NCBI GenBank assembly: GCA_947646585.1
Contig: CANSHD010000001.1
Span: forward strand, 62,001-126,000
DNA: 64,000 nucleotides
DNA from: an uncultured Alphaproteobacteria bacterium
Lineage (GTDB): Bacteria > Pseudomonadota > Alphaproteobacteria > Rs-D84
Direction: 5' to 3'
A program made the translations under genes and the position numbers. The notes beneath the pieces are model-generated. The model saw only the letters and a list, made by a program, of their open reading frames with translations, was not told where the DNA came from and did not search any database. Below are positions 21,553-27,069 of the stretch, in pieces (the first letter of the stretch is position 1; each line of letters starts with the position of its first letter).

Positions 21553-24237
21553 TCAGTGTACGGCATGATACTTATTTCCGTCAATATTCACATTCAAGGC
21601 CCCCGTCGCCGCACCGGCCGCCAGATTACCATAACACACCTTGCCGCCCACATTTACATGTATTGCCGGCGCGGTCTGTTTTGACGCATACAGCGGTATT
21701 ATCAAATCCCCCGTTCTTATCTTTGTCACACCCGCCGCACACATCGCCGCGCATACGTTGTCGGCCGTCAGATTATATCCGGAATCACAAACCGTGTTCG
21801 CAGAGTTATAGCCGCACGCCGTCGGATAATAAACAGTTGTCGCATTCGGCGGTATGTATCCGTTCGAAACGGCGCTGTTCCCGCATGATTTATAACAGAC
21901 ACCGCTGCCGGCTGAATTGGCGTTCGCACTGTTCCCATACGTCTTGTCCCCCAGCGCGCCGCACGCCGCACAAGCGTTCCCGTTTTTATAGTATCCCGAC
22001 GCACAGTTTGTAACCGTCTGGGCGCAGTTGGACGCGGCCGCGTTGCATGTGCCCTGATAATGCTGGGTGCCGCTTGTGGCGGTATTTGCATGCGTGCACG
22101 CATTTACCCCCGTCGCACAGGCCACCTGTGTGCATGCCTTGGAGCATGACTGATAACAGTTTTTGTTCGCACTGCGTGCGCCGTCGGATTTCGTGTACGC
22201 CGCCCCCAGTGTCGTGCACGCCGTGCGCACATTGTTCCCGGGACAGAAATATCCGTCCTCGCATGCGGTGCACGTGCCGTTGCTGTTCTTATAATATCCC
22301 GGATTGCATGTCACCGTCATCGTACAGGCGGATGCCGCGGCGCTGCAGCTGCCGCCGTAATATTCCGTGCCGGATGTTGATTCCGTCCCGTACGAACACG
22401 TCGCATTCGCGGGACACGCCGGCCGGTCGCATGCACGCGTGCATGATTTCCAACATGCACCCGCCCCGCCCGTCGTACCGTTTGCGCTGTTGGGGTGCGA
22501 CGACGGACAACCCGCGCAAGAATTCCCGTCCTTATAGTATCCGTTTTTACAACTGTTCACCGTCAGGGTGCATGTCGATGCGGCGGCGTTGCATCCAACG
22601 CCCTGGGCATCGGTTCCGGTCGTATATGTCGAACCGTGCGAGCAGCTGTAGGCGGCGGCGGGACACGACTGTTGCGTACAGGCCCGCGTGCACGATTTTG
22701 TGCACTGCGACGCCGCGGTGGACCCGGCCGGCGACGAATATCCCGAATTACACGCCGCACACGAACCGGAGCTTAAATAATAATTCGCATTACACTGCCA
22801 CGGACAGTTGTCCTCGACCGCGTACATTGTCGACGGCGTGCCGCGTCCTGTGTATGTGGAATTGGCGGGCTTGTTCGTACAGGCCTTGCAACTGGTATAC
22901 CAGTTTCCCCAATTTAACGGATCCGCCGCATAATACCCGGTACGACAATAATCATACTGAGTGTAATTATTACCGCCCGGCCCTGCATAACACGCCCCCT
23001 CATTTAAGTACTGTGTGCGCGTCTCGTCACTGAACCACCAGTCACAGATACAGTCGCCCACTCCCGTCGCATGATTTGGATCGCTCCAGTTTCCGCTGGA
23101 AATACTTCTTATACTGGGCGTGACGGAACTGGCCTTGACCGTGCTGGCGCATGTCGCGCGATGCGTGCCGCCGGTACAGTAATTCCCACTGCCACAATCG
23201 GCGCACGACGTGTTTCCGTTGGCGCTGCTGCCGTAATATCCGGCATTGCACGACCACGGACACGCGTTGGATGTCGAACTGCCCGTATAATTTGAATTTG
23301 CCGGCGCATTGCTGCAGCTGTTCAGACCATATCCGGATGACGGACTGTTTACGTTTGAAAATCCGGGACAGTAATGGCCCGTTGTACACGCGGCGCATCC
23401 AGATCCGTTCCAGTAATACCCCGCATCGCAGCTGTATCCGTATCCGGCGCCGCTGTTGGACCAAGCGCCATAAGAACAACTGCCCCATGACCAGGCGCCA
23501 TAATTTCCCCAAGCGCCGCAGTTTTGCCCCGTACAGGCGGACGAACCGTTCGTACCGCCCGCCCCGCCCGTGCGATAGCATGTGCGCGACATACTGCGCG
23601 TACCACTTCGCGAGCCGCTGCGCGTCTGATTTTGTTTATACGACCCGTGCGCAATGGAAACGGTTACGGTCTGCGATGTCGCGGTGCAGCCGCTGGTATC
23701 CGTGCCCGTGTCTGTGCCGGACTCTGACCAGGACACCCCGGTACACGCATAACAGGCGCTGCCGCTTAAATAATACCCGCTGTTACAGCTGTAACCGCAA
23801 CTGTACAGGCCGCCGCTGTTTGACCAGGCACCGTACGAACACGCGCCATAGGACCAGCTGCCATACGAATATACGCCACAGTTTGCCGCCCCCGTACACG
23901 CGGACGCACCGTTCGTGCCGCCCGCCCCGCCCGTACGATAACATGTGCGCGACTTGCTGCGCGAGCCGCTACGTGACCCGCTGCGCGTTTGATTTTGCTT
24001 GCACGAACCGGAACCATTGCTGACCGACTGGGCCACGTTCACCGTCTGCGATGTCGCCGTACAGGCGCTGGTGTCGGTCGTATAATCCGTACCGCTGTCC
24101 GTAAATGAAACGGTCGAACACGCCACACATGAGTTACCAGCGCCGCTTCCGTTCATATAATATCCGGACGAGCATGACGTATATTTTTTAAGTGTGGGAC
24201 AGCTATAACCGGCGGCATCGGCCGCAGTTGCAAACAC
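21553..24237 (-). CDS. Giant Cys-rich repeat protein, apparently switched off (no valid start)
   Basis: This 894-codon frame encodes a protein rich in Cys, Gly, Ser and Tyr with two repeat families. Two copies of a 130-residue module contain QNQTRSGSRSG and RTCYRTGGAGGTNG. At least three copies of an 80-residue module start SCTRAC or similar and end in a CxxGYYKNG motif. CxxGYY-CxxC patterns recall growth-factor-like domains of surface proteins, including eukaryotic ones. The only start codon is a GTG at 24237 with no ribosome site. The frame stays open upstream to 24273 and codes IVHFFSLLLFCCVFA, the core of a signal peptide, without its N-terminus. The missing start lies inverted next to it (see 24261-24361). 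It is most likely a phase-variable surface protein, now in the off state. Confidence 0.8.
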   Translation of the reverse strand: MFATAADAAGYSCPTLKKYTSCSSGYYMNGSGAGNSCVACSTVSFTDSGTDYTTDTSACTATSQTVNVAQSVSNGSGSCKQNQTRSGSRSGSRSKSRTCYRTGGAGGTNGASACTGAANCGVYSYGSWSYGACSYGAWSNSGGLYSCGYSCNSGYYLSGSACYACTGVSWSESGTDTGTDTSGCTATSQTVTVSIAHGSYKQNQTRSGSRSGTRSMSRTCYRTGGAGGTNGSSACTGQNCGAWGNYGAWSWGSCSYGAWSNSGAGYGYSCDAGYYWNGSGCAACTTGHYCPGFSNVNSPSSGYGLNSCSNAPANSNYTGSSTSNACPWSCNAGYYGSSANGNTSCADCGSGNYCTGGTHRATCASTVKASSVTPSIRSISSGNWSDPNHATGVGDCICDWWFSDETRTQYLNEGACYAGPGGNNYTQYDYCRTGYYAADPLNWGNWYTSCKACTNKPANSTYTGRGTPSTMYAVEDNCPWQCNANYYLSSGSCAACNSGYSSPAGSTAASQCTKSCTRACTQQSCPAAAYSCSHGSTYTTGTDAQGVGCNAAASTCTLTVNSCKNGYYKDGNSCAGCPSSHPNSANGTTGGAGACWKSCTRACDRPACPANATCSYGTESTSGTEYYGGSCSAAASACTMTVTCNPGYYKNSNGTCTACEDGYFCPGNNVRTACTTLGAAYTKSDGARSANKNCYQSCSKACTQVACATGVNACTHANTATSGTQHYQGTCNAAASNCAQTVTNCASGYYKNGNACAACGALGDKTYGNSANANSAGSGVCYKSCGNSAVSNGYIPPNATTVYYPTACGYNSANTVCDSGYNLTADNVCAAMCAAGVTKIRTGDLIIPLYASKQTAPAIHVNVGGKVCYGNLAAGAATGALNVNIDGNKYHAVH

Positions 24238-24260
24238 GCAGCAGAATAATAATAGAGAAA

Positions 24261-24361
24261 AAAAGTGGACGATTTAATTCGACAAAAACAGGAGATGCAA
24301 ATGTGGCGGAATTCGGTGATTTTTAAGCGTTCTTTTATCGCTAAGAAAATCGTCCCATTTT
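24261..24361. repeat. Putative invertible segment carrying the missing start codon
   Basis: GGACGATTT at 24267-24275 and its exact complement AAATCGTCC at 24347-24355 flank 71 bp; with outer AAAA and inner TT the arms extend to about 19 bp with mismatches. On the plus strand the inside carries AGGAG (24290-24294), ATG at 24301 and codons for MWRNSVIFKRSFIAKK. If the segment is flipped, this reading joins IVHFF of the giant protein in the same frame and makes a full signal peptide. In the present orientation it codes only a 21-residue plus-strand ORF. Confidence 0.8.
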
Positions 24362-24395
24362 ATTAGGCAGTATATCTCAGCCCCACACGCCACAC

Positions 24396-24424
24396 ATTAT
24401 ATGGCATTGCGCGTTTTTTTACAA
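24396..24424 (-). promoter_or_regulatory. Fixed promoter reading into the invertible segment
   Basis: On the minus strand TTGTAA and TATAAT have a 17-base spacer. The promoter lies outside the inverted repeats and reads toward the giant Cys-rich gene, so flipping the segment would change translation rather than transcription. Confidence 0.7.
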
Positions 24425-24440
24425 GATTAAAAATATAAAA

Positions 24441-24468
24441 AAACAGCCCGGGGAACCCCGGACTGTTT
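24441..24468. terminator. Terminator after the secretin gene
   Basis: ACAGCCCGGGG-AAC-CCCCGGACTGT hairpin with a long A/T run on the low-coordinate side. It ends minus-strand transcripts of the pilus secretin. Confidence 0.8.
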
Positions 24469-24483
24469 TACAAACGCACTTTT

Positions 24484-26112
24484 TTAGTTCAGCGGCGCGC
24501 CCCAATGCTGTTGTATTGCGCGCTCGGAATCCATGGGGCTGACCAATACCTGCGGCGTCAGGATTACAACCAGCACATCACGCTGAGCCGATGTTTCACG
24601 TGAACCGGACAACGCCATAAAGTCGGGGTCACCCAGGCCATATCTGGTGTCGGACCCGGTCTGCTTTTCAAATCCCGACACAACCAGCATCTGACCGGAT
24701 TCCATAATGATTTCCTGCATAAAGCTGCGCTCTTCAACCTCCGGCAACTGCAGTGTCACCTCGCCGATTGTCTGGGTGGACATACGCAGCAGTTCACGGA
24801 CGGAAATCTTGAACAGCAGCAGTATCTTGCCATTTTCCAGAACATTCGGCAGCAACTGCATAGAAAATCCTGTTTCCAAATCGTCCTGGTCAACGGTACT
24901 GGATTCAACCGTAGTAAAGTTACGTGATTCAAATCTCTTTATATATCCCGTCGTGCGGGTGTTCGTTACCGGCGCCACACGGTTGTTTCGTGTCGTCACG
25001 CCGACATTCGTCACCAGCGACACCTTGCCCTGCTTTGCCAACGCCTGAATCAGCGCGTTACTGCCGGCGACACTGGACAGACTGCCGTTTGCAATCTGGT
25101 CGGCCGTGTACGCGCCGTCAACAGCAACGCCGTTTTCCATATGCGTCGCCCCGGTCAGTGCGGAAACGGTATTTGACAGAACCGCAATGTTCATGGAGCT
25201 GGCGTCCTGGGTCGCCAAATTGTTCTTTGGATTCGCAACAATATTCAGCCCCGATGTCGAGTTAATGGCCGCGGCCAGGTTCAGACCGAACGCAGAATCA
25301 TTCGACAGCGACACCTGCAGCACCTTGACGTCAATCGTCACCAGCTGCGACAGGCGCTTGTTCTGGCGGGCGATGTATTCGCCGACGCGGCTCTGCACCG
25401 ACGGCGGCGCGGTCACGGTGATTGTACCCAAACTGCGCGACACTGTAAAATCGGCGTTTTCCGTCTTGCCAATGATTGCGGCAATCGCCTGTTCTACCTC
25501 GTCCCATTCTTTCAATGTGGATTCCAAAGACACCTGGTTTCCGTCGTCGGTCTGAACGGACGACTGATAGGAAACATCCGTCCCCAGCGCATATAATGTA
25601 AATGTCTTGGTCTCCGTTTCATAAAATACGATGGCATCCTTGTCGTAATACCACAGCAAGTCCAGGTCTGTCGCAATCTGGCTAAGCAACCCCGACAGCT
25701 TTCCGGTATAGGCGATGTTCATCGTCTTTTTTAATTTTTCCGCGTTCACCTGGCTGTCAATTTTAACAGGGATTCCGGTGATGGAGTTGATATCGTTCGC
25801 CACAACCTGCAGGCCGACCGGCTCGTTTAACAAAATGGTGACACCCGTGTCCGTTTCAAACTTGCTCGGCAAATTGTTTCTATGTTCCAGAACCGTCGAT
25901 TTGTTCCCCAGCCATACCCCCTCTGACATGGATACGGTGTCACTGCCGGCAACCTTGGCGCGCGGCGTCTTGGACATTTCAAACGCATCATATGCATTGA
26001 TAAAATCCTGATCAACCGCCGCGGACATCTTGGCAGATTCACGCGTCGCGCACCCGGCCGCCAACGCGCATACTATGCCGCCCGCGATAAAAAGTTTTAT
26101 TGGATTTCTCAT
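24484..26112 (-). CDS. Type IVb pilus secretin, PilN-like lipoprotein
   Basis: The 542-residue outer-membrane protein has a lipoprotein signal peptide with lipobox LAAGC at 17-21. Its middle part holds secretin N-domains (about 95-260, with ITVTAPPSVQSRVGEYI near 230). The C-terminal secretin domain has LVTNVGVTTRNNRVAPV, VDQDDLETGFSMQLLPNV and the final VILTPQVLVSPMDSE. The lipid anchor and domain order match PilN/BfpB secretins of type IVb pili and conjugative pili. It is cotranscribed with the TcpQ/PilL-like gene upstream. The assembly ATPase and platform protein are not in the window. Confidence 0.85.
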   Translation of the reverse strand: MRNPIKLFIAGGIVCALAAGCATRESAKMSAAVDQDFINAYDAFEMSKTPRAKVAGSDTVSMSEGVWLGNKSTVLEHRNNLPSKFETDTGVTILLNEPVGLQVVANDINSITGIPVKIDSQVNAEKLKKTMNIAYTGKLSGLLSQIATDLDLLWYYDKDAIVFYETETKTFTLYALGTDVSYQSSVQTDDGNQVSLESTLKEWDEVEQAIAAIIGKTENADFTVSRSLGTITVTAPPSVQSRVGEYIARQNKRLSQLVTIDVKVLQVSLSNDSAFGLNLAAAINSTSGLNIVANPKNNLATQDASSMNIAVLSNTVSALTGATHMENGVAVDGAYTADQIANGSLSSVAGSNALIQALAKQGKVSLVTNVGVTTRNNRVAPVTNTRTTGYIKRFESRNFTTVESSTVDQDDLETGFSMQLLPNVLENGKILLLFKISVRELLRMSTQTIGEVTLQLPEVEERSFMQEIIMESGQMLVVSGFEKQTGSDTRYGLGDPDFMALSGSRETSAQRDVLVVILTPQVLVSPMDSERAIQQHWGAPLN

Positions 26113-26139
26113 CTGTCTCTCCTACGTCGCGCCATGCGC

Positions 26140-27069
26140 TTATTCTTCGTTGGTCGATATTACCAAAACGCGGTTGCCTTTGTAAAATTTCGCATACGGC
26201 ACCGGTGTCGCGCGGCCGAAATTACGCACCAAGGCGGACGCCACGTCAACAAAGCGTCCCTTGAAGACGGCGCTGGCCTCAATCGGATATTCACGCGGCG
26301 TGGTCCATACCAGGTCCCAGCCCTCTTTGTCACACCATGTCTGCAGCACTTCGCGCAGCGTCTGTCCGTTTGCAACAACCCAGGAGCGCACCTGGTCCTG
26401 CAGGGTTACCGGCGCCTCCGCATCGGCGGACGTATCAACCGCAATCTCGTTACCGGTGCCGTCGCCCGATGCATCGGACGAACCGTCGCCACTGGTCGGC
26501 GCAAAACCCATCTTTGCCGCATACGCCGCATAACCGTCGGCATATCCGCCGCAATTCTTGCGACTGCTGCGCGACACGGCCAGAACATTGCCGCCGTCGT
26601 CTTCCAAAACCTCGCGGTGCAGCAACGGCATCTCGGACCCTGAATTGCATTCGTCGTCAAACCCGACCGGAATCTGCGTCCCGTGCAGCATGTTCGCCCC
26701 GCCGGACCATCCGCCGAAATCACCGCGCGTGCCCATGTTGAAATTATTTTCCACAACCAAATCCGCGCCTATCTTGGAAACAATGCGAATGTTGTCAGAC
26801 TGCTTGTCCTTGGCGCACAAACCGGATTCGCACGCAACCTCTACGTCCGCGTCAGACCCCGCCAGCGGCCACGCCGGAACAACCGCGGGCGCCTGATAAT
26901 ACTCCTGCACCTCCGTCTGGGTGACGTCTTCGTATTCACCGCCCTGCTCTACCGCGCGGTCTTCGGAATAAAACACCTCTGACGTGACGACCTGGGGCAA
27001 ACCCTGGGCCGCAAAGCAATAGCCGGCCGCCGTTGCAAACATGGCAAAAATCAAAACCTTGCGGAACAT
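26140..27069 (-). CDS. TcpQ/PilL-like type IVb pilus protein
   Basis: The 309-residue protein has a Sec signal peptide (MFRKVLIFAMFATAAGYCFA). A low-complexity middle part with scattered Cys follows. The C-terminal 90 residues (VRSWVVANGQTLREVLQTWC, then VWTTPREYPIEASAVFKGRF) match the TcpQ domain, found in TcpQ, PilL and related proteins that stabilise the secretin. It ends 27 bp before the secretin start, so the two work together. AGGAAAGGAAAA precedes the ATG. The assignment rests on the C-terminal domain only; the rest is unlike characterised relatives. Confidence 0.75.
   Translation of the reverse strand: MFRKVLIFAMFATAAGYCFAAQGLPQVVTSEVFYSEDRAVEQGGEYEDVTQTEVQEYYQAPAVVPAWPLAGSDADVEVACESGLCAKDKQSDNIRIVSKIGADLVVENNFNMGTRGDFGGWSGGANMLHGTQIPVGFDDECNSGSEMPLLHREVLEDDGGNVLAVSRSSRKNCGGYADGYAAYAAKMGFAPTSGDGSSDASGDGTGNEIAVDTSADAEAPVTLQDQVRSWVVANGQTLREVLQTWCDKEGWDLVWTTPREYPIEASAVFKGRFVDVASALVRNFGRATPVPYAKFYKGNRVLVISTNEE

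Follow-up and report, generated by a model that had tools for sequence, protein, structure and literature searches.

The 87 bp at positions 24268-24354 of the window are very likely an invertible start cassette that a serine invertase of the Mpi family would flip, and production and export of the giant Cys-rich protein encoded beside it would be restricted to the flipped orientation. The window is the whole stretch of DNA analysed here, i.e., 64,000 nucleotides from an uncultured alphaproteobacterium. The gene for this invertase lies at another place in the genome, and the cassette would be turned around between a fixed promoter and the gene body. In the flipped orientation, ribosome site, ATG and n-region would join the hydrophobic core of the signal peptide, and the protein is predicted to be produced and exported. 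In the OFF orientation the promoter would still fire, yielding an mRNA on which the gene has neither ribosome site nor start.

The giant gene runs leftwards, i.e., on the minus strand. Read along this strand, a promoter motif (24424-24396) is followed by a first repeat (24355-24347), 71 bp, and a second repeat (24275-24267), which already lies inside the signal-peptide codons for IVHFF. The two repeats, GGACGATTT at 24267-24275 and AAATCGTCC at 24347-24355, were confirmed letter by letter. A search for the two with their gap gives a single match in the window and none in 100 shuffles, and matching spacing was found at 79 of 110 loci of the same kind (see below); a chance repeat was rejected on these grounds. 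An earlier note on this DNA had taken the repeats to bound 71 bp. While their sequences and distance are exact, the comparison of 106 loci puts the exchange in one dinucleotide (GA here) per repeat, and the moving unit is therefore 24268-24354. The features of the locus are as follows:

24396-24424, minus strand: promoter-like motif TTGTAA-17-TATAAT, fixed and outside the segment (motif; conserved in 11 aligned leaders)
24336-24371, minus strand: promoter-side recombination site of about 36 bp, containing the repeat 24347-24355, with the exchange dinucleotide at 24353-24354 (repeats and 106 loci; putative extent)
24268-24354, no strand: putative invertible start cassette, now OFF (87 bp; dinucleotide-to-dinucleotide spacing 85 bp)
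24290-24294, plus strand: ribosome-binding site AGGAG of the flipped state (anti-SD energy of -7.4 kcal/mol when flipped; L074)
24301-24354, plus strand: ATG and 18 codons, a signal-peptide n-region that would join the gene upon the flip (frame reading)
24251-24286, minus strand: gene-side recombination site, containing the repeat 24267-24275, with the exchange dinucleotide at 24268-24269 (repeats and 106 loci; putative extent)
24274-24276, minus strand: TAA stop, which the gene's frame meets as the segment now stands (sequence)
21553-24267, minus strand: fixed part of the gene, 904 codons plus stop, comprising the Cys-rich body and, of the signal peptide, hydrophobic core and cleavage region (frame; listed from GTG 24237)
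24440-24469, minus strand: terminator-like hairpin of the upstream secretin gene, separating the switch unit (sequence)

The minus-strand frame encodes IVHFFSLLLFCCVFA and opens directly past the in-frame TAA at 24276-24274. Its first listed start, GTG 24237 (894 amino acids), sits behind the hydrophobic core of the signal peptide, so that the 894-codon frame indeed lacks a usable start. AGGAG and ATG 24301 lie on the plus strand, with the reading MWRNSVIFKRSFIAKK-IV. Exchange at the repeats turns this reading into MWRNSVIFKRSFIAKKIVHFFSLLLFCCVFATAADAAGY, in frame with the giant gene, as verified by letters, and the predicted flipped product has 922 residues. The present orientation was rightly called OFF and the flipped one complete, since a start with a ribosome site is present only after the flip. 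The gene-side repeat lies within signal-peptide codons and the inversion alters the product, as in coding-sequence invertons, in which at least one repeat is inside the coding sequence. As for the fixed promoter that had been proposed, TTGTAA-17-TATAAT is present outside the segment and 11 aligned homologous leaders show little or no variation at its -10, but the motif alone is no better than chance (one found versus a shuffle mean of 1.0). A classical invertible promoter was rejected because the promoter motif lies outside the segment. The neighbours of the switched gene, at 24484-27069, are a secretin gene (PF00263) and a gene with a TcpQ domain (PF10671), parts of a machine of the pilus or type II-like kind.

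Two more places were revealed when the host genome (968 kb on two contigs) was searched at the DNA level. The first (L003/L102, C2:269676) is an intact paralogue that begins with MYQKCRIFLPLKSAKKILHFFSLILF and stands ON. Its leader matches the flipped window locus with 68% identity over 318 bp (E 1e-37) versus 65% over 320 bp (E 2e-26) for the window locus as it stands. The second (L002/L103, C1:674934) is OFF and reads MRKTGFYKKITGAMKIVGFLS in frame once flipped. A profile of promoter and left site, R1, was built from 11 loci; these match at their left flanks by construction, while right sites, frames and orientation were unused in building it. R1 adds C2:214615 (ON) and a doubtful fifth place, C1:150901, giving four credible loci and one doubtful locus in the host genome. 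In the doubtful locus (L105), two sites of the GT type are spaced by 85 bp; hairpins lie at the ends of this pair, and a start cassette cannot be read from it.

Across the genus, R1 matches 147 of 156 genomes at E<=0.1, many of them weakly, and 37 of 156 at E<=1e-4. The order-wide search at the latter threshold yields 38 of 201 genomes, i.e., the same 37 and one from another genus of the family. At least 30 scored matches were obtained in each of G020, G106 and G194; many segments with a shared inverted site are dispersed over single genomes, as in an Mpi-type multi-locus system. The genus comprises relatives of Candidatus Enterousia (G018 is Candidatus Enterousia excrementavium), and the relatives of the host bacterium come from animal guts. 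NCBI lists Candidatus Enterousia in Alphaproteobacteria incertae sedis, and a paper on Enterousia places it in the order Rs-D84 with genomes of 0.75-1.02 Mb (PMC12306168). Of the 80 sites on the contigs of G020, G106, G194 and G141, 12 are no more than 200 bp away from a contig end, where 1.3 are expected. Assemblies tend to break at cassettes, an excess that is also expected from repeats alone.

The orientation census comprised 110 loci with at least 330 bp downstream each, drawn from 26 genomes plus three further loci (L099 from G038). They remained from 115 records, five of which were too short (L079, L127, L135, L168, L028). Left out were L121, L141, L161, L002, L005, L011 and L029 as repeats of places already included, the weak matches L106-L108, and secondary part-hits inside L128, L130, L133 and L149. 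An orientation passed if it had a ribosome site of -5.5 kcal/mol or better, a start within the segment and an open frame of at least 45 codons beyond. By this rule, 76 of the 110 loci pass only flipped (OFF), 18 only as standing (ON) and two in both orientations, with 14 fitting neither state. Removal of L139 and L198, which are ON by rule and have no credible right site, leaves 16 ON; L098 was scored ON despite a centre misplaced by the model. Shuffled segments pass in 107 of 4400 cases (2.4%), and upon deletion of one or two bases 12 and 14 of the 110 loci pass, respectively. At the OFF loci the median anti-SD energy is -8.6 kcal/mol flipped versus +1.6 for the best in-frame start at present, and 11 of these 76 have no in-frame start at all as they stand. 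The idea of a start-codon switch with the promoter left outside is thus borne out by the 76 of 110 loci that need the flip for an in-frame start with a ribosome site. The codon boundary falls at an identical position relative to the exchange point at 90 of the 92 classified loci. This constancy bears on the possibility that the backward frame is a separate small protein, MWRNSVIFKRSFIAKKIVPFY, encoded at 24301-24366 on the plus strand with no switch involved. A good ribosome site and an ATG would suit such a protein. However, its codons run in frame into the signal peptide after inversion and resemble those of the intact paralogue L003, and together with the constant boundary this makes a separate protein highly improbable.

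Further signs of inversion come from comparisons between and within genomes. The ON locus L102 of the host genome and the OFF locus L076 of G039 share identical left flanks (40 bp) and right flanks of 97% identity (40 bp), while their segments are 95% identical when one is reversed and 53% otherwise. In G032, the segments of L189 and L190 (OFF) equal that of L193 (ON) in reverse, with 100% identity and before different genes. As a single genome thus has one segment both ways round without any mismatch, inversion should be recent and repeated, and the different genes behind these segments suggest copying or exchange of cassettes between loci. Overall, 122 segment pairs are at least 90% identical, and 29 of them stand in opposite orientation, 21 within one genome. 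With such pairs as proxies, we infer that cells of one population may differ in state. The earlier note had proposed, as a check, to look for the same locus in the opposite orientation in relatives. The homologous loci L102 and L076 provide such a case, but the window locus itself is ON in no record searched, database proteins included, and the locus closest to it among those found, in G023 (78% DNA identity), is OFF as well. The closest protein, P0001 (89% identity), begins at an internal Met. The starts of P0002, P0008, P0009, P0012 and P0019 fit the OFF reading, and these proteins are 98-100% identical to products of OFF loci over the shared part; like the start of P0001, these starts speak against the switch. 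The first 41 residues of P0020 equal the predicted flipped product of L090 (OFF in G120) before the sequences diverge, and P0020 may come from a different locus, either in that species or in one related to it.

A single rare event at short repeats, e.g. by template switching, could have left a frozen inversion, with the window gene as a decaying pseudogene. The OFF state of both the window locus and its G023 relative, the lack of an ON record and the mere 9 bp of the window repeats are compatible with such an event. Nevertheless, we regard it as improbable: no damage is seen in the 904-codon frame or in the backward cassette, the 92 classified loci (16 ON, 76 OFF) all keep frame after the flip they need, and the G032 segment occurs in both orientations, without a single difference, in one genome.

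Comparison of the two sites at each locus supports the start cassette and locates the probable point of exchange. In a free search over 45-189 bp, the partner repeat lies 83-86 bp away at the 79 loci mentioned above, and the central dinucleotide is common to both repeats in 77 of them. With the partner sought at 81-88 bp, dinucleotides could be counted at 106 loci, and both sites have the same one at 95 of these (GA 74, GT 9, AC 7, AA 5; unlike in 11). Each of the two central bases agrees within loci in 92% of cases, versus 70% and 62% between loci, and the bases just outside agree within loci in only 21% and 20%. The outer arms thus differ and stay put, and the common dinucleotide would mark the exchange. 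The left site forms a dyad, TATGCCTAA...TTAGGCATA, with at least seven of ten outer positions paired in 37 of 106 loci versus none of 106 shuffles. This dyad, present at related left sites, suggests that recognition probably involves more than the 9 bp of the repeat, namely about 36 bp around each exchange point. Serine recombinases require a shared core of 2 bp, and tyrosine recombinases a 6-8 bp overlap. The core found here is of the former type, and exchange would occur by cuts at the common central dinucleotide. Like cores should permit exchange between loci and unlike cores prevent it, and the matched site pairs with GA, GT or AA cores provide a ready test set for partner choice by Mpi-type invertases. 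Separately, L101 is a cassette with differing arms (GTGCACC.../...GGTGCAC) and a core of CC/AC by the rule; variants of the site may exist.

The candidate enzyme is encoded at G000:C2:71813-72424 of the host genome. This small serine recombinase (PF00239) matches NF009949 ('master DNA invertase Mpi family', NCBIfam) with 309.7 bits against a cut-off of 272, which places it in the Mpi family, and it would be the enzyme that flips the cassette. The host genome also contains six matches to tyrosine recombinases (PF00589), five of them over the cut-off, including XerC- and XerD-like ones, and four matches to serine recombinases in total. A second Mpi-like serine recombinase, L039 (G000:C1:572255), scores 233 against the 272 bits of the family cut-off, i.e., below it, and is 46% identical to the first. 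Homologues of the Mpi-like gene were found in 54 of 156 genomes at E<=1e-70. They are present in 30 of the 32 genomes whose best R1 match is <=1e-5, versus 24 of the 124 others (Fisher p 4e-15, kinship ignored). The two exceptions, G023 and G026, combine strong sites with no invertase homologue at E<=1e-70. These exceptions, like the six tyrosine recombinase matches, would be in line with a tyrosine recombinase (XerC/XerD or an integrase) as the flipping enzyme instead of an Mpi-like serine one. Since the two sites have no more than a dinucleotide as common core and differ in the bases next to it, and the Mpi-like gene tracks the sites across genomes, we consider a tyrosine recombinase unlikely, and Xer-type exchange was rejected as first choice.

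The 92 ON and OFF frames encode N-termini of the signal-peptide type as judged by eye, with a median Cys content of 6.8%; the fetched stretch contains 70 of the frames in full (57-559 residues) and truncates the other 22. The window product shows one sub-threshold Pfam match and has at least 38 relatives in a protein search in which the best 7992 candidates were scored; with the giant protein as query over the genome contigs, no relative was found. The window product is likely exposed at the surface. Of the 13 loci tested among those that fit neither state, seven combine a spacing of 84-86 bp with a hairpin and T-run in one orientation only (four as standing, three flipped), namely L128, L130, L133, L138, the second site of L149 (L149:958), L181 and L097. 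In comparison, 8 of 94 start-type loci also have a terminator match in one orientation. The terminator-type loci that were read have their ribosome site and start outside the segment. These seven appear to flip a terminator instead, in the manner of CwpV, on the same type of site.

Many genes of the genus are preceded by such a piece, in some cases forwards and in others backwards, and it likely flips to turn exported proteins on or off. These products would fit a role in surface variation, e.g. in immune or phage escape or bet-hedging. A wider picture, whose chances we see as evenly balanced, is a genome-wide switchboard in this genus of reduced genomes: one Mpi-like invertase would serve dozens of uniform 85-bp start cassettes and a sister class of terminators, cassettes could be copied or exchanged via common sites, and cells would export different subsets of surface proteins. 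The best-known inversion switches turn promoters. Inversion phase variation with the translation start and the signal-peptide n-region as the moving part is, as far as the loci can be read, a new form. Among the titles and abstract openings of the literature searched, which lacks most subscription papers, none described a comparable cassette with start codon or signal peptide, or inversion in Enterousia; a term search within the Enterousia paper (PMC12306168) gives neither 'invert' nor 'phase variation'. Transcription would be left alone, and the switch would act at translation start and export, as a standard part before dozens of genes in an uncultured gut genus with genomes of ~1 Mb. Such a switch would explain why these proteins are truncated in gene predictions. 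It also points to a large device for variation from cell to cell that is retained even where genomes are strongly reduced.

Among known systems, Mpi segments carry promoters. In Bacteroides fragilis, one serine master invertase, Mpi, acts on at least thirteen dispersed invertible regions (PMC5903667), and invertible segments of Bacteroides carry promoters (PMC2268961). The system described here shares with it the NCBIfam invertase family and the many dispersed short segments with a common site type. It differs in its alphaproteobacterial host and in that the promoter-like motif lies outside a segment that holds ribosome site, start codon and n-region. For CwpV of Clostridioides difficile, a fixed promoter precedes 195 bp that invert and contain no reading frame, with a proposed terminator action (PMC2784873), and the flip is due to the tyrosine recombinase RecV (PMC5903667). 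The likeness, as far as these sources describe CwpV, lies in the fixed upstream promoter and in a leader inversion between promoter and surface-protein gene. In contrast, the window cassette has 85 bp and contains coding sequence, with a start and 18 codons, and it is the seven terminator-type loci (of the 13 tested) that resemble CwpV. In the Mycoplasma vsa/vpma and Ureaplasma MBA/UU172 systems, inversion connects different gene bodies in turn with a single expression site or N-terminus (PMC2268961, PMC3047005). According to the same accounts, inversion there picks the surface-protein body to be joined to a promoter or signal-sequence N-terminus, while here every gene has its own promoter and an 85-bp cassette that would switch it individually. 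Intragenic and partly intragenic invertons were reportedly described by Chanin et al. in 2024, a study cited in PMC11868660; they have a repeat within the coding sequence, so that start and N-terminus are altered by inversion. Unlike these, a uniform cassette stands here before dozens of genes of one genus and would switch translation start and export signal together.
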